A stretch of 64,000 nucleotides of DNA from Chloroflexota bacterium (lineage in GTDB: Bacteria > Chloroflexota > Anaerolineae > 4572-78 > J111): assembly GCA_016860845.1 (NCBI GenBank), contig BOKF01000019.1, positions 62,001 to 126,000 on the forward strand. Reading direction: 5' to 3'. Both the position numbers and the translations under genes were made by a program. Of the stretch, positions 17,128 to 62,873 are shown one piece after another (position 1 is the stretch's first letter; each line of letters starts with the position of its first letter). The notes beneath the pieces were generated by a model that was given only the letters and a program-made list of their open reading frames with translations, was not told the DNA's origin and searched no databases.

Positions 17128-18219
17128 ATGAAAAAAAATAAATTAGCCATGCATCTTAGCCGGACCGACAGTCCCAAGGTGATCATACTTAAACGCCGGC
17201 TGCCGCGTCCGACCACCCAACCACCCCACCCGTTGCATGCCCATTTTCCCCTGACTCCGCCGGTGGTCACAAACCCGGCCGCCTGGGAGGTGGCCGAACA
17301 CATCCAGCGCCTGTGCAGTATTTCCAGGCTGGACCCTTACGTCGTTTTGACTGATTTCTTCACCATGTGTATGTACCACCTTCAGCTCTACGGCATAAAT
17401 ATGAAATCCCTGGTGATAGAAGGCAAAGCGGCCGAAGATCCACCCGACGCCAAGAGCTTCTTCAGGCGCGCTCGCGAACGGTTCGACCGGGCCACTCTGC
17501 AATATCCCGGTACGTTTCGGGTTATGATGGAAACTTATTCGGTCCTATATACCAAGCTTCGGGAAGCTCGGCCATTGGCCGAGGCCGTCCTCCATCCTGA
17601 GATTAACCCCGATCTGATCGCTCAAGTGTTTGTGGCCTGTCTTCGACCAGGACCTGAATGGTGGCCCTATTTCCCGGATTGGCAGGTCGCCCTGGAGATG
17701 GCCAAAAGACTGATTCCTGACCCGCCAGGGACAGTCCAGGAAATATTGGCCGAGGCCTCCTTAGCCTACGAAGAAGCCTCAGGCGAATCGTATCAAGAGA
17801 TCATGACATCTGAAGCGTGGGAACTGTGGGCGCCGAAGATCTACCCCTTTGTCAAAATCAAGCTCTTCCCCCCACCCTTTATAAACTGCAGCACCCTCCT
17901 ATTAGCCCTGGCCGCCCAATTCCCCGAATGGGTGTTAACCAGCCACCTGGTTCACTTCCACATGGATGAAAGTGCACCTTTGATCCATACCATGGGAAAT
18001 GTCGCTGGGATGCTGTATGGTCTCAATGGGGCAAGCCTGGCGATGTTGCAAGATATTTTGGACATCCAGGACTATTTGCAGCAGCACCAACATGAATTGT
18101 TGAGCACCCCGTTATCCCAGCAGCAACCGGTAGAGGAGGAGCCCGATGAACAGCCGTTACCAGAACTGGCTCCTCCCTTGTCTGGCAGCACCTTCGAAGA
18201 ATTGTTCCGGATGGGTTAA
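17128..18219 (+). CDS. Methylase-derived protein lacking SAM and catalytic motifs, copy 1
   Basis: 363 residues; start chosen at M-K-K-N-K by similarity to the copies at 61749 and 62857. The body parallels the N-terminal and core segments of N-6 adenine DNA methylases: a helical part with L-D-P-Y-V-V-L-T-D-F-F, E-D-P-P-D-A-K-x-F-F-R-R-A-R-E-R-F, then N-P-D-L-I-A-Q-V-F, P-D-W-Q-V-A (where methylases have F-F-T-P-x-x-V-A) and N-C-S-T-L-L-L-A-L-A (where they have G-S-G-x-M-L-L-A), ending in Y-G-L-N-G. The glycines of the SAM loop are gone and no N-P-P-Y segment follows. The protein ends with G-S-T-F-E-E-L-F-R-M-G. The role is unknown; the family link is my inference. Confidence 0.6.
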   Translation: MKKNKLAMHLSRTDSPKVIILKRRLPRPTTQPPHPLHAHFPLTPPVVTNPAAWEVAEHIQRLCSISRLDPYVVLTDFFTMCMYHLQLYGINMKSLVIEGKAAEDPPDAKSFFRRARERFDRATLQYPGTFRVMMETYSVLYTKLREARPLAEAVLHPEINPDLIAQVFVACLRPGPEWWPYFPDWQVALEMAKRLIPDPPGTVQEILAEASLAYEEASGESYQEIMTSEAWELWAPKIYPFVKIKLFPPPFINCSTLLLALAAQFPEWVLTSHLVHFHMDESAPLIHTMGNVAGMLYGLNGASLAMLQDILDIQDYLQQHQHELLSTPLSQQQPVEEEPDEQPLPELAPPLSGSTFEELFRMG

Positions 18220-18326
18220 TCTGGCTAACCCCATAATCTAACCGCAACAGGGAGACAGTAGGTGAGTTTTTGTAGCGAGCAAAGGTAGAAAGGATCGGAG
18301 GAAATTTAATAACTTTCGTGTAACCG

Positions 18327-18355
18327 TTGACAGAAGTATATTTTTATGTTAAGAT
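18327..18355 (+). promoter_or_regulatory. Strong promoter, twin of the one at 40480
   Basis: TTGACA at 18327-18332 and TAAGAT at 18350-18355 with a 17-bp spacer that contains TATnTTTTATGT-like sequence. It sits ~235 bp before the gene at 18591, leaving a long leader with a GGTTGG/CCAACC hairpin near 18548. A closely similar promoter and early leader (ending in a CCCGCAA block) occurs at 40480. Confidence 0.65.
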
Positions 18356-18590
18356 AGTAATATCAGTCTACTATTTCTCCCGCAAAAACCTACTCATTAG
18401 TCTCCTAACTCTCCCTATTTTTATCGTCCTGTTCATCCATCAACCTAGTTTCCGTAAAACTCATCGTTTATCTCCACTGTGAAATAACTCCGCCTTGCTG
18501 CAAATAAATCCTATAATTATCTAACTAAACAATCGTTTTACAGGCGAGGTTGGCGACCAACCCCGTTTATTGATCATGCAGGAGACCTCT

Positions 18591-19580: not shown

Positions 19581-19639
19581 GCCAATAACTCCCAACCTAA
19601 TCCTTTCAAAGAACGACCCATTTTTTGCTTCTCTCAGCT

Positions 19640-19676: not shown

Positions 19677-19696
19677 AATATCGAAAAGGAGTTGCT

Positions 19697-26783: not shown

Positions 26784-27086
26784 ATGGGTGATGACAAACT
26801 TACGAAAAAGATTCGGATCATCTGCCGAAATAGGACCAAGGGGGAACTCGTCTGCGATCAAACTTTTCTAACGACACCGGAAATAGCCCTGCTATTTCTT
26901 GAACGCATCCAGGAAATGCTCGCCGATATGCCACCGAAAAGCACTCAAATGGCCGCTTCCGAGCTGAATATTGATACCATCGAGGTCGAGATAGACCTCA
27001 TTGTATCGCCTATCCCCCTCCATGGCATGCCTGTTGCCCCAACTTTTGAAGACCTGTTTCGCTGGCCATCGGCAAGGCCGGTTTGA
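26784..27086 (+). CDS. Small protein with C-terminal TFEDLFR motif; paralogue of 50108
   Basis: 100 residues; ATG behind GGGGAAAGAA. It aligns with the protein at 50108: (K/T)-G-E-x-V-x-D-Q-T-(F/Y), an aliphatic helix A-x-L-L-x-x-(R/Q)-(I/L)-x-x-M-(L/V)-A-D-(M/F)-P, then a strand and Pro-rich link to A-P-T-F-E-D-L-F-R-W. The tail motif is shared with unrelated proteins in this window. Function unknown. Confidence 0.6.
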   Translation: MGDDKLTKKIRIICRNRTKGELVCDQTFLTTPEIALLFLERIQEMLADMPPKSTQMAASELNIDTIEVEIDLIVSPIPLHGMPVAPTFEDLFRWPSARPV

Positions 27087-28873: not shown

Positions 28874-28923
28874 AGCAGACTTTGAAAAAATCGTCAAATT
28901 CTGTTTCTGGTTTTTTTGAATCT

Positions 28924-31071
28924 ATGAACAGTCAGGCCGGACCAGACAAAACAAAAATAATAACTGTTAAGGGACTTTATCTCGACGAGTACGAGGCGAT
29001 CGTCAAACCTCATCAAGCCTTCCTTATCTCTAATTACTTCATCCGGTATTGGCTCAGGCGACTGGAAACTACTTTGGGCTGGATTATCATGTCCTTGCTC
29101 CAAGCCTGTTGGCGGGCAAATGAGGATGAAATCGAGATCGACCAGCGAACGATCGCCGAAGAAATAGGTTTGGATCGCCGTACGGTGGGTCGCCAGACTA
29201 AAGATAACGCCTGGTATCACTGGTTTCTTCCGAAAATTGAAGAGAACCGGGGCGAGAAACAAAAGGATAACAGCTACAAACCTCTCCCCAAAAAATACCA
29301 CGTTTACCTGTCCATTCCGCTCATCCCGGAACATCTGGCCGGCCTTTACGTCTTTTTCCAGCGACGATGCTCCACGCCAGCTACGGCCGCCAAGGTCGAG
29401 CAAGCTTTAGATGAACTGTACAGTCTTGAGAGTAAGGTTGCCTTGGCTCTGCTGGAAAGCTACGCGGCCGAGGCGCCCCGCCAGTTCGAAGCACCCCTGG
29501 CCTTTAAAGATTTACTAGAGCTGGCAACCGGATTTGTGCCTGAAAAAGTGCTTCCAAAAGAGAAGGTGAAAGATTTTAACGAAAAGATTTCACAGACCTA
29601 TCTTAAACTCGTCGACATTGGTTATACGGATTGCCGGCAGTACTTCCGCCGCAACTGGGTACCATTACTTGGCTCGTCTCTGGCCTGGCTTATTATGGCG
29701 CTGCGTTCCCAGTGTTTTTACAATCCCAAAACCGGTGAGCTACGTGATACCTGCACCTGGCAAAAAGGCGCGCTGGCTGGGATCCTGGGTCAAACACCTA
29801 AAAACCTGACGCGGTTGTTGGAAAATGAGTACACTCCTCTCTTCTTCGAGATAATTAGACAAAATAAACGGGAGATCGAATTTAAGGTACGCATGATAGG
29901 CGAACCCCTCATCCCTGACGATTTTGAAGCCTTCTGGACGCAGAGGGTCACCAATCCCGAACCGGACAAAATTGTACTGTCACCCATCAAGAATCAGACA
30001 AAATGTGACATGACCCCCTCGAAAGAATCGGACAAATTACGACATGACCCTGTAGAGAATGCGACAAAATGCGACATGACCCTCTTAGAAGAATCAGACA
30101 AAATGCGACATGACCCCATTGGAGAATCGGACAAAACACGACATAACCTCCCAGCGAATCGGACAAAACATGACATGACCCCACAGCGAATCGGACAAAA
30201 TGTGACACATGAAAGTACTCTAAAAGACTCAGTACTTTTTGTTGTTGATCAGAAATCAATGAGAACAAGTTCAAGTATTGAAGATTTGTTACACAAAGCT
30301 GGACTCAGCGGTGGGGGACTAAAACGCTTATGTGATCGGAATCCACCTTTGGATCAGCGACAGGTCAGGGCAGTTCTTTTGTATGCCGAAGCTAACCAAC
30401 TAGGACCAGGCTACATTTACAACCATCTTGACCAGAACATACCGGTAGATGAGCTGTTTCTGCGCTTTGCCGATTTAAATACTGAAATACTGACAGCGTT
30501 TCAGCAGGCCGTAAAGGAGTTGCGGGTAAATGGTGGCCGCGTGCCGTCGGAAATATTTGCTTTAATCCCTGGGGAGCATCTCGGTCTTTTTGCTCAATTT
30601 GCAGAGGTGTTTGTCGGGGTGAAAGCCGAGCTCGTCATTCAGATGTTTCATCACGGGCAAATGACTGCGGATCCGCCGGAGCTAGCAGACACCACTCCTT
30701 CTTTGGGGGATGAGCGAGCCGAAGCGGCTGCTACTATCAGCCTTCCCCAGCCGCCGGATCAGCCTGAACCCGCTGCTGTGGCAGCACTTGAATCGGATGA
30801 CTTGGAGCGGCTATGGTGCCGAGTCTTGGAGCAACTCCAATCACAGATGACGCGAGCCACTTTTGATACCTGGATCAAAGATACTCGGTTGATTGGTTGG
30901 GACGGAACAAAGTTTACCATTGCCGTTAAAAGCCAGTATGCGTTGGATTGGTTAAAAAACAGGCTGGCAAAGACAATCGAGCGTACTCTAAGGCTTATGA
31001 TGAGTGAACCTAACTACAACCAGCACTGGCCAGAAATGGAGTTGGAATTTGTCAGCTACCCACCACTTTAA
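28924..31071 (+). CDS. Plasmid replication protein with C-terminal DnaA domain-I-like region
   Basis: 715 residues from ATG 28924; a TTG at 28882 adds 14. Residues ~15-130 contain a winged-helix-like block (I-D-Q-R-T-I-A-E-E-I-G-L-D-R-R-T-V-G-R). A second such block (A-L-A-G-I-L-G-Q-T-P-K-N-L-T-R-L-L) lies near residue 285. Residues ~628-700 match DnaA domain I: L-W-C-R-V-L-E-Q-L, then T-R-A-T-F-D-T-W-I, then a strand and A-L-D-W-L-K-N-R-L. That domain binds helicase and loading partners, so this is the likely initiator. Residues ~348-429 are encoded by DNA repeats and are probably a linker. Position behind iterons and RNA units supports the call. Confidence 0.75.
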   Translation: MNSQAGPDKTKIITVKGLYLDEYEAIVKPHQAFLISNYFIRYWLRRLETTLGWIIMSLLQACWRANEDEIEIDQRTIAEEIGLDRRTVGRQTKDNAWYHWFLPKIEENRGEKQKDNSYKPLPKKYHVYLSIPLIPEHLAGLYVFFQRRCSTPATAAKVEQALDELYSLESKVALALLESYAAEAPRQFEAPLAFKDLLELATGFVPEKVLPKEKVKDFNEKISQTYLKLVDIGYTDCRQYFRRNWVPLLGSSLAWLIMALRSQCFYNPKTGELRDTCTWQKGALAGILGQTPKNLTRLLENEYTPLFFEIIRQNKREIEFKVRMIGEPLIPDDFEAFWTQRVTNPEPDKIVLSPIKNQTKCDMTPSKESDKLRHDPVENATKCDMTLLEESDKMRHDPIGESDKTRHNLPANRTKHDMTPQRIGQNVTHESTLKDSVLFVVDQKSMRTSSSIEDLLHKAGLSGGGLKRLCDRNPPLDQRQVRAVLLYAEANQLGPGYIYNHLDQNIPVDELFLRFADLNTEILTAFQQAVKELRVNGGRVPSEIFALIPGEHLGLFAQFAEVFVGVKAELVIQMFHHGQMTADPPELADTTPSLGDERAEAAATISLPQPPDQPEPAAVAALESDDLERLWCRVLEQLQSQMTRATFDTWIKDTRLIGWDGTKFTIAVKSQYALDWLKNRLAKTIERTLRLMMSEPNYNQHWPEMELEFVSYPPL
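29965..30210 (+). repeat. Eight ~33-bp direct repeats inside the replication gene
   Basis: Units begin with GGACAAAAT-like sequence at 29965, 29997, 30031, 30063, 30097, 30130, 30162 and 30194, spaced 32, 34, 32, 34, 33, 32 and 32 bp; core GACAAAATGCGACATGACC. Because spacing is not always a multiple of three, the same DNA is read as T-K-C-D-M-T, S-D-K-M-R-H-D and G-Q-N-V-T-H. Conservation is therefore at the DNA level, as for origin iterons. Confidence 0.8.
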
Positions 31072-31261
31072 GAGGGTGCTGAAAAAGTCTCACCATAGAG
31101 GAAGTACTAATGACCAGTATGACTGTGCAAACGAAGACGGGCCACCTCCAACGCCCGTGCTGGTCCGTGCTAGGTGCTCACTGCCACCCGTATACCGCTA
31201 CCGGGTAGTTGCGGAATTTTTCAGGAAAAATCTGATTCTGAAAGTTGATAGGAGATTATTT

Positions 31262-43715: not shown

Positions 43716-44056
43716 ATCCTCTCTTGTTTACTGGCCCAAACAGCCTCAAATTGTTCTCCTTGATTCAATGCCCGGCGGACCTCTGAGCGGACTGTACTTA
43801 GGGCCTCGGAAACAAGCCTAAAAGAATCACCTGAATTGATAAAAGAGATACATATTGTCTTTCTGGAACTGTATCCCTGCCCACCACTCGTTTGTGGATA
43901 CATCAGAGGGGTTGAAAGAAATCCCACACCAGCTTTTGTGGCTGTACATCATTCGGTAAAGCGAAATCAACTTAAAGGCTTGCTTCAAATTCCTCATACC
44001 AAAAGCAATAAAATTCAAAAATTGTCCAAGCCCAAGAAAGGAGGATGTCTATCGAT
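43716..44056. other. Intergenic stretch inside the block
   Basis: About 340 bp. A minus-strand frame (43712-43927) is open but unsupported; it may be debris of an inserted gene. The last bases hold the ribosome site of the methylase. Confidence 0.4.
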
Positions 44057-44989
44057 ATGCCCAAAAATAGAACGCAGCCGCAAAAAAGACTCAATGCCGA
44101 GATTCTGAGCTGGCTGCGTAACCCGGACGACGCTCCTCGCAAGTTTTCAGTGCGAGAAGTACTCGACAACTATGGGCCGCCCGACCTCAAAGACTCGGGC
44201 CAGTACTTTACCAAACCAGAAACTGCCAGGGCCGCCTTGGAACAATTGCGGTTGTGTCCACCCCGCTCAGGCAAACTCCGGGCGCTAGACCTGTGCGGCG
44301 GTATTGGTCATCTCGTCTACCCCTTTAGCTTTTTACGTGACTTGCTCGATTTTGACGTTTACGAGATCGAAGAAGAGTGCGTGGAAGTAGGGCGATATCT
44401 GTTTCCCTGGGCCAACTGGTTCGGCGACACGCCGTTCAAGCATATTTCCGAACTAGAAGGAAAATATGACTTGGTACTGGTCAATCCACCCATTGGAACC
44501 CGACGGGGCATCGAATTGGCCCGGCACGTGTGCGAGAGGCGTAGTTCGCGCAGCGAGCACCTGTTTCTCGAATTGGCCGTTCGCGCTCTTAACCATAAAG
44601 GGCAGGTGGTCTTTCTAGGACCGGATAGTCTGCTGGAACGCCGCCCTATGGCGCTCCGCCAATGGATGGATGAACAATCACTGGCCAGTTCTAGGTTTGG
44701 GCCATTACCTAAGCCTAAAGGGGCCCCGGTAGCGCTATATGCTTTTTATTTCAAGCGGCCCAAGTCATCGAAGGGCAACTCTTCTAAGAGTCCGCCACTC
44801 AAGATTCAATTCGACGAGTCTAATAATCCGGCTGCATCTAAATTAGAAAAGGAGCTTTTATCATATGACAGCACAAACCCCTTTCTTTGCTCAACCTGTG
44901 CAACCTCACCCCGGTACACCCGGTGGCACAATGGGACAGCCGTTCGTGGTCGATGGGGTAGCGACGCCACTCAACAGTGCTGCGCCTAA
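44057..44989 (+). CDS. SAM-dependent DNA methylase of the PRTRC block
   Basis: 310 residues. A SAM loop A-L-D-L-C-G-G-I-G-H-L near residue 76, an acidic strand-end V-Y-E-I-E-E near 103 and the catalytic-type L-V-N-P-P-I-G near 142 fit an N-6 adenine or related DNA methylase. Upstream Q-Y-F-T-K-P-E is the F-T-P block. ATG at 44045 lies too close to the GGAGG, so 44057 is preferred. The last ~42 codons overlap the next gene by 125 bases and look like out-of-frame translation of it (T-R-W-H-N-G-T-A), suggesting that the original stop was lost. Confidence 0.75.
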   Translation: MPKNRTQPQKRLNAEILSWLRNPDDAPRKFSVREVLDNYGPPDLKDSGQYFTKPETARAALEQLRLCPPRSGKLRALDLCGGIGHLVYPFSFLRDLLDFDVYEIEEECVEVGRYLFPWANWFGDTPFKHISELEGKYDLVLVNPPIGTRRGIELARHVCERRSSRSEHLFLELAVRALNHKGQVVFLGPDSLLERRPMALRQWMDEQSLASSRFGPLPKPKGAPVALYAFYFKRPKSSKGNSSKSPPLKIQFDESNNPAASKLEKELLSYDSTNPFLCSTCATSPRYTRWHNGTAVRGRWGSDATQQCCA

Positions 44990-45431
44990 ACGTGTCTTTA
45001 TCTACAATAATAAGCATTACGAGGATCCAGGCGCCCATTTTACTATCGAACAAGTACGGGCAAGTATGGCCCAACTTTTCCCTGAGGTAGAAAATGCTTC
45101 CTGGAACATTAATATGGCCTCGGACGGTACCCAGGAGATCACCTTTGTGAAAGTAACGGGCGAGAAAGGCGCTACAGTAACTCCCCAGCAGGTCATTAAT
45201 GCTGTGGTAGTGATCTCGCCTACCCAGGTTCACGCCGTTAACCTGCTGCACTCCCTGGCTCAGATGGATCTGTCTGGACAATTAGGTGGGGCCACCTTAC
45301 TGCGACTGGCTCCTGAAATTGAAGGGGCCCTGGCTCAGGCGGAAGAAATTGCTCAAGGTAGTCAAAAGGTCTTAACGCGATGTTTAGCGCTCAAAAGTGT
45401 CCCTGCTTTCCAGATCCCAATCGGGTTTTAG
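44865..45431 (+). CDS. PRTRC protein C-like ubiquitin-fold protein (Prok_Ub)
   Basis: 188 residues; ATG behind AAGGAG. Residues ~41-104 fit PRTRC protein C: R-V-F-I-Y-N-N-K-H-Y-E-D-P-G, then F-T-I-E-Q-V-R-A-S-M-A-Q-L-F-P-E-V-E-N-A, then E-I-T-F-V-K-V-T-G-E-K-G. This small domain is regarded as a prokaryotic ubiquitin-like beta-grasp fold. Standard PRTRC C proteins are ~70 residues, so the 40-residue Pro-rich N-terminus and 80-residue helical C-terminus are additions. The chain ends in P-I-G-F, with no diglycine, so conjugation in the ubiquitin manner is uncertain. Confidence 0.75.
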   Translation: MTAQTPFFAQPVQPHPGTPGGTMGQPFVVDGVATPLNSAAPKRVFIYNNKHYEDPGAHFTIEQVRASMAQLFPEVENASWNINMASDGTQEITFVKVTGEKGATVTPQQVINAVVVISPTQVHAVNLLHSLAQMDLSGQLGGATLLRLAPEIEGALAQAEEIAQGSQKVLTRCLALKSVPAFQIPIGF

Positions 45432-46267
45432 AGCCGGCAGCGCCCCCCACGCCTCCAGTAACCCAACTCAAACCGTGGACCGTCCTCGGTCGTCTCCAAC
45501 CCCTGTCGTTGAGTGCCCTGATCGCTCAACTCAACGAGTATGATCGGTCGGTACAGGCTTTAAACCTGGTTGAGACGCACTTTCCGGCCGACATCGAGGA
45601 AGTGTTCGGCGACCTATCGAAGTATGGCTGGTGGGAACTCCTCGCTCACATGGCCAATCGGGTCAAGCAGGCTGATTGGTTCGAAATTGACTGGGACCGG
45701 CTTAACCAGGCCTGGAATATCTGGTATGAGAAGCCGGAAACTCGCGGTCAAAAGTTATCCGAGTATCTGCACTACATCCCTATCAAGCTGTATGGTTTTA
45801 CTTCGCAAAAGCTAAAGGAGTTCCCACCGATGGAACTCTTGGATGTACTGCTCAACAACAAGCCGGTGACGCCCAGTGGCAACCTACTGATTGCGGCTGA
45901 GATCTACGATAACCTGGAGGAGATTTGGTCTGAGTCAGAGCGTCATGCGGCCTGGACGATGTTAAACCGGATTGAGGAAGATCCGGGTCAATATCCTGAG
46001 CCGGTACGGTGGTTGCCTGAATTAAGTCGCTGGGTCTGCCACCGCACCGGCAATCCGCTCCTTGACGTCTTATTCACCGAGCAGGAGGGGCCTTGGTTTA
46101 CCTGGGAAACTGACCTACAAACCTTACGATCAGCCTGGCGTCGAGCTAAGCCGGTCCTCAACCAATTTCATCGAATTTGCGAGTGGTACGAGAAGGATTC
46201 AACGAATCTCTCGTTACTCGCCGGATTTTTAATGGAGGGTAATTCTTGTGAACAACTCGACTGGTGA
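45380..46267 (+). CDS. Protein in the PRTRC F position
   Basis: 295 residues from ATG 45380, overlapping the previous gene by 52 bases. In other PRTRC cassettes the order is E-C-F-B-A-ThiF, so this gene sits where F belongs. Its C-terminal part (V-C-H-R-T-G-N-P-L-L-D, then A-W-R-R-A-K-P-V-L-N-Q-F-H-R-I-C-E-W) is compatible with what I recall of PRTRC F, but the match is weak and position is the main argument. Mostly helical, no catalytic motif visible. The next gene starts before its stop. Confidence 0.5.
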   Translation: MFSAQKCPCFPDPNRVLEPAAPPTPPVTQLKPWTVLGRLQPLSLSALIAQLNEYDRSVQALNLVETHFPADIEEVFGDLSKYGWWELLAHMANRVKQADWFEIDWDRLNQAWNIWYEKPETRGQKLSEYLHYIPIKLYGFTSQKLKEFPPMELLDVLLNNKPVTPSGNLLIAAEIYDNLEEIWSESERHAAWTMLNRIEEDPGQYPEPVRWLPELSRWVCHRTGNPLLDVLFTEQEGPWFTWETDLQTLRSAWRRAKPVLNQFHRICEWYEKDSTNLSLLAGFLMEGNSCEQLDW

Positions 46268-47012
46268 CGCGAATAGCAATAATCTTCACCCAACTCATTT
46301 AACTCCGCAAATCCATTTTGATACGACGACTGGGCACTTGTTCCCCATTCTGGTTTTTCCCCAGATTCAATGGGGCGAGGAGGATAAAGCTCGGTTGCAG
46401 GTCATTATCCAACTCTACACGGACTTTATTGTTCTTTCCAAAGTAGGCTCAAACGGGAAGGTAACTGAGGAGTATCTCGTTCATCCGGCCGAACTGACCG
46501 CTGCTTTGAGCGGGATTAATCTATCCTCGGGCCTTTTGCCGCAAAATTGTCTTTTCTGGAGCCGGCAGGAGGGATTCCTCCGAATAGGGATTTACCTCCC
46601 GCCACAAGTCCGTCTGGTCACGATGCGCGGAGAAGTGGAAGCTTGGCGGATCCCTTTACCCGGTCTCATCATGATTGGGCATCATTTGAATTACAGTTTG
46701 TGGGCGGTTAAAGAACCGCCAGTAGACCCCCGCATCCCGATCTATATGGCCCCCTGCCCCAATGTCCATGCCCAAGGTATCTGCCAGGGGAATGCGCCTT
46801 TTCCCCCGGCCAGCCCGGCGACCATGTGGCAAGCTGTGGACGCTTTTTTTGGCAGCAAATTCAACCGTGACCTATCTGATGGCAAAAGCCGGCAGCATCC
46901 TAACTCCGTAGTTGAGACGTGGCAGGAGTTAAATAAAGGCCGGGCAGAGGAGTATCCTTTAGATGACCTGGTAGCAACCAATTTGACCTTGGGGAGGTTG
47001 ATCGATGGTTGA
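46248..47012 (+). CDS. PRTRC protein B, E2-like
   Basis: 254 residues from a GTG behind GGAGGG. The key block P-C-P-N-V-H-A-Q-G-I-C-Q-G-N-A-P-F-P (residues ~165-182), followed by W-Q-A-V-D-A-F-F-G-S-K-F-N, is the signature of PRTRC protein B, described as a divergent E2 (ubiquitin-conjugating-like) family. The Cys in G-I-C-Q-G is the candidate thioester residue. Length matches the family. It overlaps both neighbours by a few bases, so it is produced with the JAB and C proteins. Confidence 0.82.
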   Translation: MNNSTGDANSNNLHPTHLTPQIHFDTTTGHLFPILVFPQIQWGEEDKARLQVIIQLYTDFIVLSKVGSNGKVTEEYLVHPAELTAALSGINLSSGLLPQNCLFWSRQEGFLRIGIYLPPQVRLVTMRGEVEAWRIPLPGLIMIGHHLNYSLWAVKEPPVDPRIPIYMAPCPNVHAQGICQGNAPFPPASPATMWQAVDAFFGSKFNRDLSDGKSRQHPNSVVETWQELNKGRAEEYPLDDLVATNLTLGRLIDG

Positions 47013-47754
47013 CCCCACGATGCCTCTGTTTAACAACCTCATTCCTTTGTATCTGTATCAAGGCGGAGTGATCCCCCGGCCCACTTATGAGTATGACTAC
47101 ATTATCGCCAGCCAGGGCGTGATCAAACGGCTTGAAACTGAGGTTGTCTCTGCCGACATGATCCTGGTCCCTTTTTACACGGAATTAAGGGGGCTGTACT
47201 TGCAACTCTATCCTCTCAACGTGGTATTCAAGTTACCGCGTATCCCTTGGTATCTGTTAGAGCAGGTTCTGGTTGATGCCCGGACGAATGCTCACCTTGA
47301 ATTCATGTATCATTTCCGGTTCATGGGTGGCCAATGGCATGTCACCTTCCCTGAGCAAAACCAGGAAGAGGCTTGGGTTGGCTATTACAATGTCGATCCG
47401 ACTGGAATCGCGCTTGATCTACATAGTCATAACGGCATGCCTCCCTTTTTTTCACCGACGGATAATAAGGACGAACGGGGCGGGCGGTTTTATGGGGTAA
47501 TTGGTTACGTTGACTCCCCCACACCGCAAATAGTGTTACGGCTAGGGATGCACGGTCACTGGCTGATCAATGTGCCCGCCCTGCTCCTATTTGAGAATAT
47601 TGGTCCGTTCGTGGAGATTTTTTTAGAGCAGGAAGTGCCCCATTATGGCCACGCCGAAATGGAAATCGGCGGAAACAACGGTCACGAAGCGTTCACCCCG
47701 GGATTCCTCTCGGCCAACCTGCTTGAGAAACTAACCCAACTGTTTAGAAAATAA
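47005..47754 (+). CDS. PRTRC protein A, JAB/MPN metallopeptidase
   Basis: 249 residues; ATG 47005 lies in the previous stop region, with GGGGAGG upstream. The JAB zinc motif is present: L-D-L-H-S-H-N-G-M-P-P-F-F-S-P-T-D-N-K-D-E (residues ~137-157), i.e. H-x-H then S-x2-D. This family is related to deubiquitinases and in PRTRC cassettes presumably trims or removes the ubiquitin-like protein. The expected catalytic Glu would lie earlier in the chain. About 30 bases separate it from ThiF. Confidence 0.85.
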   Translation: MVDPTMPLFNNLIPLYLYQGGVIPRPTYEYDYIIASQGVIKRLETEVVSADMILVPFYTELRGLYLQLYPLNVVFKLPRIPWYLLEQVLVDARTNAHLEFMYHFRFMGGQWHVTFPEQNQEEAWVGYYNVDPTGIALDLHSHNGMPPFFSPTDNKDERGGRFYGVIGYVDSPTPQIVLRLGMHGHWLINVPALLLFENIGPFVEIFLEQEVPHYGHAEMEIGGNNGHEAFTPGFLSANLLEKLTQLFRK

Positions 47755-47785
47755 GCGCAAATGTTGATTTTAAGGAGGAATAGTT

Positions 47786-49141
47786 ATGGATGGTCGTGAC
47801 CCTAAGCTCAGGGCCGGCAATAATGTAGCCACTTATCTTAAAGCCCTGCCGTTGTTTTTTACCTCCAAAGGACGGGAGCAAGCCCATCTGATTTTGAAAC
47901 GACTTCTACCCCAATCCACCCTCACCAAAATCGTTCAAAAACTTGACGTGAACCGACAGTACCCCGTTCAAATTGGTCATCCCGACCGGATATCGATTTT
48001 GCTGGTAGGTGTGGGTGGAACAGGGTCGTTCACCGCGCATATCCTGGCTCAATTGGCTGAGTGGGCCATCAAAAAAGCTGCCCTGGACGTCCGGCTCTAC
48101 TTTATTGACCCAGACGTGGTCGAACCAAAGAATATGGTCAGGCAGAATTTTTGCGAGGCCGAAATTGGACGGCCCAAAGCCGCCACCTTAGCCTGGCGCT
48201 ACAACGCCGCTTTTGGCCTGAACATCATCCCTGTAATCGAAAAATTTAAGCCGACCATGTTAGAACGGTTTAAGCCGTCTCAGTCAACGAACGGTTCGCT
48301 GATGATGGTCGTGGGGGCGGTCGATAACTATCAGGCCCGTTGCGACATTGCCCAGGCGGTTACCGACCGCTTGACGGGTCGGTTAGGTCTCAAGCTGTCT
48401 AGTGAAAAACTTTGGTGGTTGGATTCTGGCAACGAGCGTACCAACGGGCAGGTCTTAATTGGGAACAGTCTCGATCCACTGCCGGGCATCTCTCCCCTAC
48501 GCTTCTGCCTGGAAGTTCCCTTCCCCCATGTTCAAGAACCTACCATCCTTCAACCAAAAACTCAGTACTCCACAGTCCAGACAGAGCCAGATTTGAGTTG
48601 CGCCGACCTTACCTTGCTGGAGGAACAGAGCGCCATGATCAATCGGATGATGGCATCCGTACTGGGCGTTTATCTCTACCGGCTCCTACAGAAGCAGGAC
48701 CTCAACATTATGAAGACTTTCGTGGCTTTGGAAGCAATGACCATGCGCAGTGTGCCGATTACCGGGGGGCGATTGCTGGCGCCTCCCTTGCCCCAGGTTC
48801 GGACTCTGCACTCTATCCCGATGGCCACGACCAACACGCAGCCCGGCGAATGTCCCGTTTGCGGGGCGATGGTCATCGAAGGAACTGACACCATTCGCGG
48901 TGTTCAAGTTGCGGTGCGATTTTGCTCCGAATGTCAGTGGCGCGAGGAGGGCTGCCCGCATTGCGGTCATGAGTTTAGCGAGACCGAGATCGAATTAGAG
49001 GATCATCAGATCGTACCCGGCCTGGAATGTAGCAACTGCGATTGGCATGTCCCCTATCAACTCGAAGTCAATCAGGAGACTCACTCCCCAGAGATGATCG
49101 TCGACGGTGAGATAACAGAAATAGCAGCGGCTGATCAATAA
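47786..49141 (+). CDS. PRTRC ThiF/E1-like protein with C-terminal zinc ribbons
   Basis: 451 residues; ATG behind AAGGAGG. The E1/ThiF core shows L-L-V-G-V-G-G-T-G-S near residue 73, F-I-D-P-D-V-V-E near 108 and R-Q-N-F near 121, binding ATP and adenylating a C-terminus in this fold. L-S-C-A-D-L near 271, before L-E-E-Q-S-A-M-I-N-R-M-M-A, is the conserved PRTRC segment with the candidate catalytic Cys. Residues ~355-425 add C-P-V-C-G, C-S-E-C, C-P-H-C-G and C-S-N-C: two zinc ribbons or treble clefs that I do not know from typical PRTRC ThiF proteins. Confidence 0.87.
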   Translation: MDGRDPKLRAGNNVATYLKALPLFFTSKGREQAHLILKRLLPQSTLTKIVQKLDVNRQYPVQIGHPDRISILLVGVGGTGSFTAHILAQLAEWAIKKAALDVRLYFIDPDVVEPKNMVRQNFCEAEIGRPKAATLAWRYNAAFGLNIIPVIEKFKPTMLERFKPSQSTNGSLMMVVGAVDNYQARCDIAQAVTDRLTGRLGLKLSSEKLWWLDSGNERTNGQVLIGNSLDPLPGISPLRFCLEVPFPHVQEPTILQPKTQYSTVQTEPDLSCADLTLLEEQSAMINRMMASVLGVYLYRLLQKQDLNIMKTFVALEAMTMRSVPITGGRLLAPPLPQVRTLHSIPMATTNTQPGECPVCGAMVIEGTDTIRGVQVAVRFCSECQWREEGCPHCGHEFSETEIELEDHQIVPGLECSNCDWHVPYQLEVNQETHSPEMIVDGEITEIAAADQ

Positions 49142-49394: not shown

Positions 49395-49649
49395 ATGAGT
49401 AACAAGCCGGTTACCTGGCTGGATATTATCGATGAAGCTCTCTCCAGCCTTCTGGAGACCGAATTTACCCCTCAGGTCGAGGAGGCCCAACTTCTGATCC
49501 AGGATATTTTGAACGGACACGCCCCGGTCGAAGAATTGCTGCGGTCCGTTTCACCCGATAGCCAGACCAGGTCCCAACCAGCTGCCACGGCTATTAATGA
49601 CACGGAAACGGGGCGGGTTTTTAAACGGGATGAGCGCAGCGGTGGATAA
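49395..49649 (+). CDS. Small acidic hypothetical protein
   Basis: 84 residues; ATG behind GGGAGGAAC. Helical N-terminal half (W-L-D-I-I-D-E-A-L-S-S-L-L-E-T-E, then V-E-E-A-Q-L-L-I-Q-D-I-L) and a polar tail. Not recognised. The next gene begins in another frame before its stop. Confidence 0.5.
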   Translation: MSNKPVTWLDIIDEALSSLLETEFTPQVEEAQLLIQDILNGHAPVEELLRSVSPDSQTRSQPAATAINDTETGRVFKRDERSGG

Positions 49650-50118
49650 TCAGGAAACCACAAAACACCTCTTACAGTGCCATCTGCAAGCCTTTGTGCC
49701 CCTGATGATTTTTGAATTCCTACAGGGGCAACGAGTTCTAATTATGCCCAGGCCAGACCTGGCCCAATTTATTGCTGAAAATGGGGACGCTCTGCTTTAC
49801 CACTCCCCTGGCCGAACTGCCCAGGTAGCCGGAGTCCTGGTTGAAGCCTTAGCAACGGCGGCCTTTGCACCTGGGGGCGTGCGATTTCTCGACCTTCATT
49901 TTGAAGTGCCGCCCGAGCAGGCCCAAGCGGTTTTCGAACGCGACGGCCTCATCGAAACTGAAAACGGAGAATGGGTCGACCCCCGGCTACTACGTTTCTC
50001 TCAGAAACCAGAAACTGTCGAGGCAGTGCCCCTATCCCCTCTGGCTAGTCCCACTTTCGAAGAATTATTTAGACGAACCCTGGCTATTCTAGGGGAGGAG
50101 CTTGGCCATGAGCCGTAA
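49630..50118 (+). CDS. Hypothetical protein with internal FEELFR motif near the C-terminus
   Basis: 162 residues from ATG 49630. Mixed alpha/beta, not recognised. Near the end, after a Pro/Ser linker, stands S-P-T-F-E-E-L-F-R-R-T-L, the motif shared with the proteins ending at 18219, 27086, 50413 and 62873. It overlaps both neighbours. Confidence 0.55.
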   Translation: MSAAVDNQETTKHLLQCHLQAFVPLMIFEFLQGQRVLIMPRPDLAQFIAENGDALLYHSPGRTAQVAGVLVEALATAAFAPGGVRFLDLHFEVPPEQAQAVFERDGLIETENGEWVDPRLLRFSQKPETVEAVPLSPLASPTFEELFRRTLAILGEELGHEP

Positions 50119-50413
50119 TCATTTTGATGCCAGGATACATGTGAGGGCAACCAAAATTTCGACGGGTGAAGTGGTTGCCGATCAAACATATGAAACAACT
50201 ACAGCCCTCGCTCAGCTCCTGCTCAAACAGCTGGGACAGATGGTGGCCGACTTTCCGAAGACAAGGGTCCACCTTTCCCAAATTAGCCGCAAAGACGGGG
50301 CTACCGTGGTAGATATAGAAATCCTACCCATGCCCCCGGTTAATCCCTCCTTTGAGGAACGATATCGGCGTGATTTACCAACTCACGAGCTTTCTGGAGA
50401 CAAAAATCCATGA
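50108..50413 (+). CDS. Small protein with FEERYR tail; paralogue of 26784
   Basis: 101 residues; ATG 50108 follows GGAGGAG at 6 bases. It aligns along its length with the protein at 26784 (T-G-E-V-V-A-D-Q-T-Y, the aliphatic helix, and the V-D-I-E-I strand) and ends with P-S-F-E-E-R-Y-R-R-D, a variant of the tail motif. Stop and next start overlap (ATGA). Function unknown. Confidence 0.6.
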   Translation: MSRNHFDARIHVRATKISTGEVVADQTYETTTALAQLLLKQLGQMVADFPKTRVHLSQISRKDGATVVDIEILPMPPVNPSFEERYRRDLPTHELSGDKNP

Positions 50414-50871
50414 ACTCACGTCCGCCTGTCCATATTAGTCCTTATCCCAAGCTTGCCGGCGAACTGTGGCCATTTATCCGCGCTTATTGGACTTATCTGA
50501 GCCGGGCCGAAAAATGGTTTGCCAAGCTCTATGAGACTCCTTACGCGGCCACTGCCTGGAAAGAGTATGGCGGCGATGGCCTACCGCTCGGCTTGTGGGA
50601 TATGCTCTTGAGCGAACCCAACCCTACCGTGGCCAATCACCTGGAATGTGTGGGCCTGGAGCAATTTGCTACCAAAGATGCCTTAAGGTGGGTCATTACG
50701 GACGCCGACGACGAGGCCACTTATCTCACCGCCCGTTACTTCGGCAATATCTGCCTGGCGGCGCGCAATCTGCTCATCATCGCCCTCCGTTTACATAGTT
50801 TAGGTCAGCTAGACCACTTTCTCCTGGAAGTCGTAAAGGATCAAGAAACGCTCTTTGGGGAACAGACATGA
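50410..50871 (+). CDS. Hypothetical protein
   Basis: 153 residues, start overlapping the previous stop and stop overlapping the next start (ATGA in both cases), so tightly coupled translation. Helical, with several Trp and Tyr residues (L-W-P-F-I-R-A-Y-W-T-Y-L). Not recognised. Confidence 0.55.
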   Translation: MNSRPPVHISPYPKLAGELWPFIRAYWTYLSRAEKWFAKLYETPYAATAWKEYGGDGLPLGLWDMLLSEPNPTVANHLECVGLEQFATKDALRWVITDADDEATYLTARYFGNICLAARNLLIIALRLHSLGQLDHFLLEVVKDQETLFGEQT

Positions 50872-51527
50872 GCAGCTTAGCTGTGGCTTCGTTGCAGGAG
50901 ATGATCCGGCAAGGATTTGAACCGTTCTGGATCGCCTTGATCTTGCGCCGCCAACTTCAGCCAGCGCTACTTCACTTTTTGAACGGTCCGATTCTGACTC
51001 ACCGTCCTTTACCGATCAAACCTTGGCCGGAGTGGTTACCCCGGCTCGTTTACATGGACCGACTTGAGCGTATTATGGTGGAGCATGCGACCGGCAAAAT
51101 CGGCGACAGAGCCACTTTGGTCGAGGCGATGGCCTACCTGTTATCCGCTACCGAGGACAAGCGGGTGACCCAACAATGGGGAACAGGCTGGTTTCACGTC
51201 TACGGACACATCACTTATCAGGTTCTGGAAAAACATAAACTCCACATCTCGGCTCAGGATACTCAAATTGTTCATGCCTACGGGGCATTAGAGTTGACAC
51301 CCTATGAAGAGGAAAACCTGTTAGTTCCGCTTCTCAAAGTCATCCGGCGGGTGGTTGTCCGGGAAGGCCGCCAGGCAGCTGTGAGCGGCGCTGCGTCTCT
51401 TCAAGCCGCCTGCTCCTCCCAGCAATATCCAACGTTTTATCACGTCGCGCTGCTGATGGAAAAAGAGTTAAAGCGGGGCTGCAAAGTCGACAAGAAACTG
51501 ACACCCGATTCTTCCGCCACCGAGTAA
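50868..51527 (+). CDS. Hypothetical protein
   Basis: 219 residues, coupled to the preceding gene by ATGA. Helical throughout; notable segments are P-F-W-I-A-L-I-L-R-R-Q and W-H-V-Y-G-H-I-T-Y. No zinc or membrane motif. Not recognised. Confidence 0.55.
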   Translation: MSSLAVASLQEMIRQGFEPFWIALILRRQLQPALLHFLNGPILTHRPLPIKPWPEWLPRLVYMDRLERIMVEHATGKIGDRATLVEAMAYLLSATEDKRVTQQWGTGWFHVYGHITYQVLEKHKLHISAQDTQIVHAYGALELTPYEEENLLVPLLKVIRRVVVREGRQAAVSGAASLQAACSSQQYPTFYHVALLMEKELKRGCKVDKKLTPDSSATE

Positions 51528-51541: not shown

Positions 51542-51883
51542 ATGAGCAACCACCCAGCATTTTTTTATCTCAAATTGGTCACACCTCAGCAATTTGCCCT
51601 GGGTCAGTGTAATGGAGAGCCGGTCTACCTGGACTGCGCCGACTGCGGCGCTCAGGAGCCAATCATCGGCGGTATGCTCGTAGATCGCGCTTACCAGATC
51701 GCCCTCGTCTCCCTGGAGAATGGTCCATCGAAGCCGGCGGTTTATTGCCAACTTTGTTTTGACATACGATGGCAGCAGAATGAACAGCAACTATTGCCCA
51801 CAGAAACCAGAGCGCATATTCAGGTCACCGGAGCCACCTTGTTAGGCGTTGACCTCTCTGGAGGCACCCATGCCCCTACTTAA
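51542..51883 (+). CDS. Small zinc-binding hypothetical protein
   Basis: 113 residues; ATG 51542 behind AAGGAGG. It has C-A-D-C-G near residue 36 and C-Q-L-C-F near 70, a likely zinc ribbon. The end, G-A-T-L-L-G-V-D-L-S-G, recalls a pentapeptide unit by chance. Its stop lies 14 bases inside the next gene. Confidence 0.55.
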   Translation: MSNHPAFFYLKLVTPQQFALGQCNGEPVYLDCADCGAQEPIIGGMLVDRAYQIALVSLENGPSKPAVYCQLCFDIRWQQNEQQLLPTETRAHIQVTGATLLGVDLSGGTHAPT

Positions 51884-52754
51884 ACTGGCTTCGGGCGAGC
51901 TGGGCAGCATTGAAATCATCCCTCGCCAGGAAGCTATGGATATTCTCAGCCGGCCCACACCTCGTCGTACCTGGTTCGGCCAAAAATATCGCCTGCCTTA
52001 TCGGGTGAGTCGGGGACCGGGAGCGGCGGTTGATCTGATCAACTACGGGTTGCGGGTTAAAGGTAAGTGTCGAGCGGTGATGCGCATCGGCGCAGCTCCC
52101 TGGCGCAACAAGCCGGTCGTTGCCGCTGTCGGCCCCAACCTTGCTGATCAGTGCTCATACCTCATGCGCAACTGGGCTGCGGGTATAAGCTCGGAGGATT
52201 TGGTTGAATTTATTACCCAGGTCAACCTGAATTTTCCTCACGTTCTGCAACAACGCTATCCTGATCGCCCCCCCTTCCGCTATATGCTGAGTCTGGAGAG
52301 CATGGCCGGCTGGCTGATCGAGTCGCCCTCTGGCAGCATCTTCGAGTCGCCGCCGTTGGCAGGGCACATTTACCACCGAGCTGGCGCGCTCTATGCCGGT
52401 CAAACCAAGAGCGGCGCTCAACCTACCCGTTACGTCGACCCCACAACCCAGCAGATCAAGTCGGTCTACCGGGCCGGTCACAACACGATCTCCGAGCTGC
52501 GACAGGAAGGAATCCCATTAATCGATGACGGTCCTAAGCATCGGTTTGTGTTCATCACTGGAGTTGCGCCCGGCAGTTTGGAATATGCCGCGTGCCGCGC
52601 CGCTCTGCCAGACTGGGTACGGGAGTACGAATGGGGCGAGCACGGGCTGGGCTGGATCCAACCCCGGTTGTTGGTTGCTTTAGTTGAGACATTGTCAACT
52701 TGGCTCGTAATGCGGCTCGGACAGCGCGTCCAGCCTTCGCAAAACCAATCATAA
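51870..52754 (+). CDS. Hypothetical protein, tandem paralogue 1
   Basis: 294 residues; ATG 51870 behind GGAGG. Strongly similar to the protein at 53133 over its full length. Shared landmarks: I-E-I-I-P-R, R-R-T-W-F-G-Q-K-Y-R-L-P-Y-R-V-S-R-G-P-G, S-M-A-G-W-L-I-E-S-P, I-Y-H-R-A-G-A-L-Y-A-G-Q-T and G-L-G-W-I-Q-P-R-L-L. The very conserved basic/aromatic blocks hint at nucleic-acid or nucleotide handling, but I recognise no known fold. Confidence 0.6.
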   Translation: MPLLKLASGELGSIEIIPRQEAMDILSRPTPRRTWFGQKYRLPYRVSRGPGAAVDLINYGLRVKGKCRAVMRIGAAPWRNKPVVAAVGPNLADQCSYLMRNWAAGISSEDLVEFITQVNLNFPHVLQQRYPDRPPFRYMLSLESMAGWLIESPSGSIFESPPLAGHIYHRAGALYAGQTKSGAQPTRYVDPTTQQIKSVYRAGHNTISELRQEGIPLIDDGPKHRFVFITGVAPGSLEYAACRAALPDWVREYEWGEHGLGWIQPRLLVALVETLSTWLVMRLGQRVQPSQNQS

Positions 52755-52765: not shown

Positions 52766-53146
52766 GTGGACAACCGACCTATCAAGTTCCAACTAACCGG
52801 AGACTGGGGGTGCTACCTGGTGACAATTCTACAGAAGCGAAGGGCTTTGTCTTTAGCCAAATCGCCAAAGGCCGGCCAGATTGAAAAAATATTGCCTAAA
52901 TTCAATCAAGCCCTGAACTGCATCCTTAGCACTATTGCCCCCAACATCGTCGCCGATATGAACCTCATCTTTGAAATCAGTGAACAGCGTGTCCGCTATC
53001 TGTTTTCGACGACTTTACAACAGCGAGAGTGTACATCCCCAATCTCTGACGACGAGACTGCCTTGCTCGAACAGACTTTGGCCGAACTCAGGCGGACTGT
53101 AAATTCTATTGCTGCTTATAAGGGAGTCACCCATGAGTCCGTTTGA
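52766..53146 (+). CDS. Hypothetical protein between the two paralogues
   Basis: 126 residues from a GTG behind GCGAGGA. Beta start (I-K-F-Q-L-T-G-D-W-G-C-Y) then helices. Its stop lies inside the next gene. Not recognised. Confidence 0.5.
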   Translation: MDNRPIKFQLTGDWGCYLVTILQKRRALSLAKSPKAGQIEKILPKFNQALNCILSTIAPNIVADMNLIFEISEQRVRYLFSTTLQQRECTSPISDDETALLEQTLAELRRTVNSIAAYKGVTHESV

Positions 53147-54026
53147 ATTAACTTCAGGTGAGTGGGGCAATATCGAGATCATTCCTCGCCGGGAAGCTAT
53201 AGACATCCTGAGCAAACCTGCACCCCGGCGCACCTGGTTCGGCCAAAAGTATCGCTTGCCTTACCGGGTCAGCCGAGGCCCCGGACCGGCGGTGGATTTG
53301 CTCAACTACGCCCTGCAAGTCAACGGTAAATATCGCGCCATTATCCGGCTTGGCAAAGCTCCCTGGGCAAATCGTCCGGCCATTGCTGCCGTTGGGCCAG
53401 AGTTAGCCACCAAGGTAGCGTATCTGGCCCGTTTATGGGCGGCGGGAATTAGCTCAGAGGATTTGGTCGAATTTATCAAGCGGGTCAATCTAAGCTTTCC
53501 CCACGAGATTCGGCGCCGCCACCCAACCCGGTCACCCTTCCACTACCTCTTGAGCCTGGATAGCATGGCCGGCTGGCTGATTGAGTCGCCTTGTGGCAGT
53601 ATCTTCGAATCGCCGCCACTGGCGGGCCGCATCTACCACCGCGCCGGCGCGCTCTACGCCGGGCAAACCCAAAGCGCAAAACCCAGCCGGTACATGACCG
53701 AAGATGGGCAAGTACGGTCTCTTTACAATGATGGTCGGACTCTCACCTCTCAATTGCAACAACAGGGCGCGGCCCTGATTGACGACGGTCGCAAGCACCG
53801 CTTTGTCTTTATAGCTGGGGCTGCGCCGGGCAGTCTCGAATATGTTGCCTATCGCGCCGTTTTGCCGCCCTGGGTGGGGGAGTATGAGTGGGGCGAGCAA
53901 GGGCTGGGCTGGATACAGCCGCGCTTATTAGTTAAACCTCTGCAAAAACTTCTGACTGGGGTTTCACCCTCGGTCGAAATGACTCTCATGCGCTGGCTCG
54001 GGAGATTGGCCAATCTCCGAATTTAG
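53133..54026 (+). CDS. Hypothetical protein, tandem paralogue 2
   Basis: 297 residues; ATG 53133 behind AAGGGAG. It is the second member of the pair starting at 51870, more than half identical by eye, with the same conserved blocks. Divergence is spread evenly, so the duplication is old and both copies seem kept by selection. Confidence 0.6.
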   Translation: MSPFELTSGEWGNIEIIPRREAIDILSKPAPRRTWFGQKYRLPYRVSRGPGPAVDLLNYALQVNGKYRAIIRLGKAPWANRPAIAAVGPELATKVAYLARLWAAGISSEDLVEFIKRVNLSFPHEIRRRHPTRSPFHYLLSLDSMAGWLIESPCGSIFESPPLAGRIYHRAGALYAGQTQSAKPSRYMTEDGQVRSLYNDGRTLTSQLQQQGAALIDDGRKHRFVFIAGAAPGSLEYVAYRAVLPPWVGEYEWGEQGLGWIQPRLLVKPLQKLLTGVSPSVEMTLMRWLGRLANLRI

Positions 54027-60246: not shown

Positions 60247-60291
60247 GAACCCCATGAGCAATAATCCTACTTATTGGGCAGAGGTTTTTCT

Positions 60292-60654: not shown

Positions 60655-61645
60655 GGAATTAAGCCGGGAGGAGGTGATAGTTCCACAGGCCACAAGCGAT
60701 TAACATAAATTTGTCAGCCAAGATGACCCCCTTGTTACGATAAGGGTCAGTCAGACAACGGAACCGCTTCACACCGCCAATCGCGTGTTCAATACAAATG
60801 CGCAGGGCACTAATAACCCGATTTTCGGCCTTTTGCTGGGAGGTCAAAGGATGATTTTTACTACTTTTGTGGGGGATGACCACCCGAAGCTGGGGATAAT
60901 CCTTGGCAATGCCCATAAAGCCCAAATCTACCCAGATACCAACATCGTCCGGAATAACCTCCCCTAACCCTGATTGCTTGAACCGAAAGTAATCTTGCCG
61001 GGCCCCTGGTTTCGTCTGGGTCAGACATAAAATGCGCTTGTGTTCATCGCTGACTATGAGATTTTTGAGGGTATGCTCTTGGTGCTTGCCGGAGTAGTGT
61101 TCCTGTTGGGCTTTGGCCTGGTGGGGTCGTTGAACCGGTCGGTCGGTGCCATCAACAAAAACATCTTTGACTGCCGGAAAGTGCTGAATGAATTCTTCTA
61201 GGGAACCAATGCGCCGTTCCGGCAAGACCAGTTGCCACCCTAACCCAACCTCCAACACGGTTAGCAAGGCTTTGACCCAGCGTTGGGTTTGGGAGCGGTC
61301 AACGTCGTACAATAAACCGGCCAAATCAAAGGTTGGATAACATTTCAAGTACAACAGAATGAAGAATAACTTATCGGTCGGGGTCTTTAAGGTATGTCGA
61401 CGCCCACCGCCGATGGCTCGTTTCCGTTCTTTCTTGGCTTTCACTTGACCCTTGTGCAAGGCCGCTGTGAATATGGGCAGCAAGCGTTCAAATTCGGCGA
61501 CCGTCACCCCGGTTAGGGCTTTCATTAAGCGGTCTGAATGGAGGGCACGATTGATATTCAACATCCGTTTTACCTATCTATGCATCCCTTATTTTTCTGA
61601 TTTCTGGTTGAAAATACTCTTTTTTCCGTTATTTCGCAACACGTC
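60601..61645 (-). mobile_element. IS5-family insertion sequence, 1,045 bp
   Basis: Perfect 17-bp terminal inverted repeats (GACGTGTTGCGAAATAA) with TA on both sides (60599-60600 and 61646-61647), consistent with a 2-bp TA target duplication as in the IS427-type subgroup. Ends are intact, so the insertion is recent. Confidence 0.85.
60659..61564 (-). CDS. IS5-family DDE transposase (DDE_Tnp_4 type)
   Basis: 301 residues. HTH-like N-terminus, then the DDE set: V-F-V-D-G-T-D-R-P near residue 135, I-W-V-D-L-G-F-M-G near 210 and the E in C-I-E-H-A-I-G-G-V-K-R-F near 258. No frameshift, ATG at 61564. Together with the intact repeats it looks active. Confidence 0.88.
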   Translation of the reverse strand: MLNINRALHSDRLMKALTGVTVAEFERLLPIFTAALHKGQVKAKKERKRAIGGGRRHTLKTPTDKLFFILLYLKCYPTFDLAGLLYDVDRSQTQRWVKALLTVLEVGLGWQLVLPERRIGSLEEFIQHFPAVKDVFVDGTDRPVQRPHQAKAQQEHYSGKHQEHTLKNLIVSDEHKRILCLTQTKPGARQDYFRFKQSGLGEVIPDDVGIWVDLGFMGIAKDYPQLRVVIPHKSSKNHPLTSQQKAENRVISALRICIEHAIGGVKRFRCLTDPYRNKGVILADKFMLIACGLWNYHLLPA

Positions 61646-61748
61646 TAGTCAAGAAATAGTGGAATTGCTGTGGAGAGTCCAGGGTGGTACCCGGAATTAC
61701 AGTGAAGTGATGGACCCGTTCGTCCAAAATAGTGGAGGTGATGACGAG

Positions 61749-62873
61749 ATGAGAAAAAACAAACTACCCAGAAATCCAATCCCCAACAGCCCACAAGTGT
61801 TGATTCCCAAGCGCCGGCTGCCACGCCCCACCACCAGACCCCATCCTCTAACGCAGCGGCTATCAGGCATACCCCCTGTAATTGACAACCCAGCAGCGCT
61901 GGAAATCGCTGAACGGATCAAGCGCCTCTGTATTATTTCCAAACTGGACCCTTACATCGTCCTCAGCGATTTTTTTGCCATGTGCAAATGGCACCTGAGG
62001 TTGTATGGTATTAACTTGAAATCGTTCATTATCGAAGGCAAAGCGGCTGAAGATCCACCTGACGCCAAGCTCTTTTTTAATCGCGCCCGTGAGCGGTTTG
62101 ACCAGGCTACCTTGCGCCAGCCCGGGACTTTTCGGGCCATGATAGACGCCTATACTGGCTTATATCAAGGACTCCGGGAACCGCGCCCCCTTGAAGACGC
62201 CGCCGCTAACCCGACGGTCAACCCGGATCTGATCGCCCAGGTCTTCGTCGCTTGCCTGCGTCCCGGGCCAGAATGGTGGCCATACGTTCCCCCTTGGCCG
62301 GTGGCCCAACGACTCGCCGAGCAACTATTGCCCGATCCTATTGACATGATTGAAGAGGCATTGACTGATGCGGGGATAGCGTACCGGGTCGCGACAGGCT
62401 ACCCTCCCCCTGAGACGATGCGGGCCAAAAATTGGGGGGAATGGTTCAGTCTCATCTATCCTTATCTTGGCACACTCCTGATAGGGCCAAATTTTATTAA
62501 CTCCAGCACCATGTTGTTGGCTCTGGCCGCTCGTTTTCCAGCGTGGATCCGGCAAGGCCATCTCATTCACTTTCACATGAATGATGACGTGCCAATTATC
62601 CATACGATGTTTGAGATCACGGCGATGTTACAGGGACTGAACGGTTTTGCCTTGACCACTATGGAAACTATGTTTGAGATTGGAGCTTTGCTAGAGGAGC
62701 GGGAAGGGCAAATTCGGGTCAATCCCCTGCCTCACCCCCAACCGGCAGAACCTGCGCAGGAGGAGGACGACTTGCACTCCATCATCCCTCAATCTGCTCT
62801 TTCCATGCCAACTTTCGAAACACTATTTCGATCCTACTGGAAAGAAGAGGAACCCCATGGGAAAAAAGAATAA
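61749..62873 (+). CDS. Methylase-derived protein lacking SAM and catalytic motifs, copy 2
   Basis: 374 residues; start at M-R-K-N-K, by comparison with the copy at 17128; the frame is open further upstream. Same plan: R-R-L-P-R-P-T-T, L-D-P-Y-I-V-L-S-D-F-F, E-D-P-P-D-A-K, W-W-P-Y-V-P-P-W-P-V-A, and N-S-S-T-M-L-L-A-L-A-A-R-F-P in place of the SAM loop. The tail is P-T-F-E-T-L-F-R followed by 12 residues. The next copy starts 17 bases before its stop. Confidence 0.6.
   Translation: MRKNKLPRNPIPNSPQVLIPKRRLPRPTTRPHPLTQRLSGIPPVIDNPAALEIAERIKRLCIISKLDPYIVLSDFFAMCKWHLRLYGINLKSFIIEGKAAEDPPDAKLFFNRARERFDQATLRQPGTFRAMIDAYTGLYQGLREPRPLEDAAANPTVNPDLIAQVFVACLRPGPEWWPYVPPWPVAQRLAEQLLPDPIDMIEEALTDAGIAYRVATGYPPPETMRAKNWGEWFSLIYPYLGTLLIGPNFINSSTMLLALAARFPAWIRQGHLIHFHMNDDVPIIHTMFEITAMLQGLNGFALTTMETMFEIGALLEEREGQIRVNPLPHPQPAEPAQEEDDLHSIIPQSALSMPTFETLFRSYWKEEEPHGKKE

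Follow-up and report, generated by a model that had tools for sequence, protein, structure and literature searches.

Five proteins encoded on the forward strand of the window, the 64,000-nucleotide stretch of plasmid-like Chloroflexota DNA analysed here, carry a common short tail near their C-termini on bodies of three unrelated types (Table 1; proteins are named by their first coordinate). We consider it likely that the tail works as a short linear motif for docking to one shared, putative hub; where three unrelated bodies display one conserved peptide, a single partner explains this most simply. To judge from database entries identical to window proteins, the contig around the window is 154,262 bases long. 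Searching all six frames of the window for [ST]FE..[FYLWM]R returned exactly five matches, all 2–14 residues ahead of a stop codon, and no sixth in any frame. These are the five tails of the original prediction, each found in its place, and the three body types proposed there also hold: the 17128 and 61749 proteins are 54–55% identical, the 26784 and 50108 proteins are 30–31% identical (BLAST E 2e-8), and the 49642 protein stands alone, matching no other window open reading frame (ORF) at E 1e-3. Only its start moves, from 49630 to what is probably a GTG codon at 49642, as in database entry P0012. None of the five tail-bearing proteins has a Pfam match at E 0.1.

Table 1 Positions of tail-bearing genes, their tails, candidate partners and short methylase relatives
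Feature	Position	Strand	Remarks
Family 1 tail-bearing protein (body methylase-derived, linker predicted disordered)	17128..18219	+	54–55% identical to 61749
Tail STFEELFR	18187-18210	+	2 residues before stop of 17128 protein
Tail-bearing small protein, family 3	26784..27086	+	Paralogue of 50108, BLAST E 2e-8
Tail PTFEDLFR	27039-27062	+	7 residues before stop of 26784 protein
Probable replication protein, C-terminal DnaA domain-I-like module, candidate hub	28882..31071	+	DnaA_N E 4e-11
Divergent PRTRC cassette (C-, B-, A/JAB-, ThiF-like genes), candidate partner	44865..49141	+	NCBIfam matches below cut-offs
Five-gene run, ends overlapping (49395, 49642, 50108, 50410, 50868)	49395..51527	+	From coordinates
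Tail-bearing protein, family 2	49642..50118	+	GTG start, compare P0012; tail in 12 of 15 outside relatives
Tail PTFEELFR	50050-50073	+	14 residues before stop of 49642 protein
Tail-bearing small protein, family 3	50108..50413	+	Paralogue of 26784; start overlaps 49642 gene end
Tail PSFEERYR	50345-50368	+	14 residues before stop of 50108 protein
Tail-bearing protein, family 1	61749..62873	+	Cluster P0001; 54–55% identical to 17128 protein
Tail PTFETLFR	62808-62831	+	13 residues before stop of 61749 protein
Short haloarchaeal/Pseudomonas 'N-6 DNA methylases'	L015:3980-4894, L016:3980-4894, L017:19980-20762		GxG kept, no NPPY-type motif

Chance as a full explanation is excluded by shuffled sequences. 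Over 60 dinucleotide shuffles, [ST]FE..[FY]R is expected a mean of 0.18 times anywhere in the window and, where ORFs of 60 amino acids or more are considered, 0.03 times among their 25 C-terminal residues; five are observed in each case. Shuffling residues within the 113 ORFs of at least 100 amino acids leaves 0.003 expected matches to a generalised motif, [ST]F[EQTS]x[LIR][FY][RK], among the 30 C-terminal residues, and again five are observed. The generalised form ends 5 of 406 window ORFs versus 0 of 4,804 ORFs (stop-to-stop, six frames) in 21 comparison loci of 773,345 bases, which comprise two whole Chloroflexota plasmids, other plasmid pieces, one cyanophage and four contigs carrying related ThiF genes, and which overlap slightly (L015 lies inside L018, and adjoining pieces share about 1 kb). 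A looser motif without the final Arg/Lys matches 4 of the 4,804. The codons of the five tails differ, which rules out a recently copied DNA segment as the full explanation.

The tail is present in 24 of 27 members of the three families. Family 1 has at least seven relatives outside the window, 26–37% identical, from a search that scored the 7,995 candidates with the most shared words; their linkers hardly align, yet the tail is kept in all seven. Mean column entropy in this family is 0.55 bits in the tail, 1.36 in the body and 1.73 in the linker. In family 2, 12 of 15 outside relatives have the tail, with varying linkers and trailing residues; the other three (P0014, P0025 and P0026) are short proteins on contigs of 650–1,573 bases and could be truncated. 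As many family-2 relatives are closely related to one another, the 12 with the tail do not count as independent cases, and with 0.86 bits in the tail, 0.91 in the body and 1.22 in the linker the tail is hardly tighter than the body. It is thus clearly tighter than the body in family 1 only. The search for outside members of family 3 returned the window's own clusters alone, and the family is known from two paralogues. The window's own clusters (P0001, P0002, P0010, P0011 and P0012) are excluded from all counts of outside relatives. Conservation in orthologues, on which the original prediction had staked its claim, is thereby found in two of the three families, no outside member of the third having been found.

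In the methylase-derived family 1, the catalytic [NDS]PP[YFW] motif of N6-adenine DNA methylases is absent from all nine members, and a wider PP pattern has a sole match, SPPL, in the linker of P0006. A narrow pattern for S-adenosylmethionine motif I is likewise absent from all nine; P0009 has a similar DPAGVGSG.

Aligned, the 24 tails give the consensus [P/Q/A]-[S/T]-F-[E/Q/T/S]-[E/T/D/Q]-[L/I]-[F/Y]-[R/K]. Ser/Thr and the Phe that follows occur in all 24, and the next two columns hold E/Q/T/S and E/T/D/Q. The later columns are L in 12, I in 10 and R in 2; F in 16 and Y in 8; and R in 20, K in 1, Q in 2 and G in 1. The last position is therefore Arg/Lys in 21 of 24, and the other three tails have Arg one residue further on. 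Tails of P0003 and P0006 end in SFEELFRK; the JAB (PRTRC_A-like) protein of the window (47005-47754) ends in LLEKLTQLFRK, a near match to this with Leu replacing the first Phe.

Structure prediction suggests a folded body followed by a flexible tether. In the model of the 17128 protein, the body (about residues 34–327) is confident and residues 328–354 have pLDDT below 50; the family-1 linker is predicted to be disordered, and its tail helix is predicted at low confidence (pLDDT about 41–43). The family-2 tail is also predicted to be helical, in a model with a mean pLDDT of 73 and a helix at 139–153. At the helix angle, the hydrophobic moment of the tails is 0.746 versus 0.456 when shuffled, a blunt test, as 7.8% of single shuffles score at least as high as the observed mean; at the strand angle there is no excess (0.461 versus 0.435). 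Its first residues, [S/T]-F-[E]-[E], are similar to a helix-capping box. Taken together, the tail has the look of an amphipathic helix with an N-cap, tethered by a disordered segment: a foldable docking peptide.

On this model, the tail would fold into about two helix turns upon binding, with Ser/Thr capping the helix and polar residues supporting its first turn. Phe, Leu/Ile and Phe/Tyr would form one hydrophobic face entering a groove of the common partner, and the Arg/Lys would make a salt bridge. The hub, plasmid- or host-encoded, would bring together in one complex the NPPY-less methylase-like proteins, the 49642-type proteins and the small proteins of family 3. We infer the binding, the single partner and the recruiting role.

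Peptides of this kind have precedents. The p53–MDM2 helix and the nuclear-receptor FxxLF peptide are capped amphipathic helices with aromatic anchors at i and i+4; they share an F-x-x-[LI]-[FY]-like helix with the tail, but their partners are eukaryotic and the analogy is one of mechanism only. Docking tails are known for a few bacterial hubs, such as the sliding clamp, SSB and FtsZ. The C-terminal tip of SSB is a conserved peptide that binds partners, and the tail resembles it in this. FtsZ and SSB each have their tail on one protein and with a different sequence, whereas here there are three unrelated carriers. FtsZ shares the likeness, with a conserved peptide near its C-terminus that binds partners (PMC11285052). 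Sliding-clamp-binding motifs (Q-aliphatic-x-[L/M]-[F/L], Gln not essential) occur on unrelated proteins that bind one hub, in some ligands as a C-terminal tail, and the tail is like them in being short and linear, in having several unrelated carriers and, in part, in its L-F core (PMC11139829). We nevertheless rejected this motif as a full explanation: aligned on the L-F core, which places the Leu/Ile/Arg and Phe/Tyr columns at clamp positions 4 and 5, the tail has an invariant Phe for the Gln (24 of 24), acidic or polar E/Q/T/S for the aliphatic residue, and Arg/Lys afterwards. In literature on PRTRC, C-terminal linear motifs and the tail letters, covering titles and abstract openings of mostly non-subscription papers and parts of PMC1779556, PMC11139829 and PMC11285052, the tail was not found. 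A tail common to unrelated, uncharacterised plasmid proteins would name putative members of a complex ahead of their functions, and would serve as bait for its centre.

Gene neighbourhoods offer several candidates for that centre. The cassette at 44865–49141 matches the NCBIfam models of PRTRC A, B, C and ThiF at E 1e-9 to 4e-36, all four under the curated cut-off, and is by these matches related to PRTRC but divergent. Directly downstream lies the run of genes at 49395–51527, presumably co-transcribed, in which two of the five genes bear tails and the tail-less ones are candidate partners. Domain I of DnaA serves as an interaction hub, and the C-terminal module of the 28882 protein matches a chain of it, 4tps_B, at E 1e-7. 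Candidates for the hub are accordingly the PRTRC proteins, the 50410 and 50868 proteins, the 28882 protein, a methyltransferase at 44045 or a host protein. The 44045 gene (44045-44989) encodes a small methyltransferase-like protein with an NPPI motif, and adjoins and overlaps the PRTRC C-like gene; the window's NPPY-less methylase-like proteins lie elsewhere. The ThiF-like protein (47786-49141) has a C-terminal extension with several CxxC pairs and a Lar-like match, which is absent from the shorter ThiF of Chlorohelix.

That the hub is the PRTRC ubiquitin-like cassette itself (ThiF/E1-like, B, JAB and C), choosing its clients by their tails, is a tentative special case of the docking reading that we regard as unlikely. 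The original prediction had been drawn to such a link. In its favour, the ThiF-, A-, B- and C-like genes adjoin two of the five tail genes, which directly follow ThiF in the run of overlapping genes. The near match LTQLFRK at the end of the JAB gene also favours it, as does the F-x-x-[LI] core of the tail, which recalls the ATG8-binding LIR/AIM peptides with their [WFY]xx[LIV] core. The tails fit this core in 22 of 24 cases, but the other two have Arg where LIR requires Leu, Ile or Val, and the strictest positions of the tail are the Phe and the Phe/Tyr four residues on, an invariant aromatic at +4 being a feature of the tail and not of LIR. Of the five tail genes, three are distant from the cassette. 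The link to the cassette is further weakened by five other loci where related ThiF genes occur and no tails were found: the whole plasmid of Chlorohelix allophototropha (Chloroflexota), the top-ranked ThiF match among plasmids, and four pieces of 11–21 kb. Were the cassette the centre, the tail would offer a first means of learning how this ubiquitin-like system selects its partners.

Relatives on other replicons lack the tail, in all five whose ends were read. A Streptomyces alboflavus plasmid protein that weakly matches family 2 (E 0.01) ends without it, as does a small protein of cyanophage Cr-LKS4 with the family-2 core (L013:21397-21681, E 3e-4). The other three, read among 179 records with short N-6 methylase relatives, are two haloarchaeal proteins and one from Pseudomonas, each short, methylase-like, encoded on a large plasmid and distantly related to family 1 (P0009–Haloplanus E 2e-6; Haloplanus–Pseudomonas E 2e-9). 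Annotated as 'N-6 DNA methylase', these resemble family 1 in lacking [NDS]PP[YFWIL] but differ in keeping a motif-I-like GxG and in having no tail; in both haloarchaeal proteins, an acidic linker that contains Pro leads to a terminal GFDEFA. Absence from all five suggests that unrelated bodies gained the tail within one replicon lineage. In a bolder version, one lineage of plasmids would have a docking code to itself, each unrelated protein having acquired the tail and a plasmid-encoded hub (possibly PRTRC) reading it to pick its clients, which would be the bacterial equivalent of recruitment by degron- or LIR-type codes; we consider this version decidedly unlikely.

The tail could instead be a targeting or export signal, for the membrane, the cell pole or a conjugation channel, rather than a hub ligand. 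An amphipathic helix near the C-terminus would suit this, as would the basic residues that often follow the tail (for example RRIRR and RKRSRS), but the helix has just three hydrophobic residues, the sequence after some tails is acidic or proline-rich, the pattern is sharper than is usual for such signals, and conjugation genes were absent from the part of the window's proteins that was scanned. We judge this improbable. A degradation or processing signal, which the original prediction had set beside docking to a shared partner, is very improbable: its C-terminal position behind a flexible linker would fit, but the eight aligned positions are followed by 1–18 residues of varied sequence, and the tail is polar and aromatic with Arg/Lys and without a conserved Lys or Cys; this lack, like the variable trailing residues, fits a binding peptide. 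The same variable distance rejects a C-terminal degron or PDZ-type ligand, which needs a fixed distance from the carboxyl end. The interpretation in the original prediction is partly supported, a docking tag for one shared partner being the likely reading. That the matches are coincidental, or that recombination spread a terminal piece with no common function, would agree with all five tails lying on one replicon but is scarcely credible given the shuffles, the differing codons and a motif kept, as the linker is not, at 26–37% whole-protein identity.

Among the window's proteins, a ParA-type and a replication-type protein match the plasmid of Leptolinea (Chloroflexota); with the Chlorohelix ThiF match, this makes a Chloroflexota host likely. 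The ORFs at 9879-10322 and 31004-31711 share 93% identity across 134 residues and represent a recent duplication inside the window. Those at 51849-52754 and 53109-54026 are paralogues, 69% identical, the first of which, the one scanned, has no NCBIfam or PHROG match.
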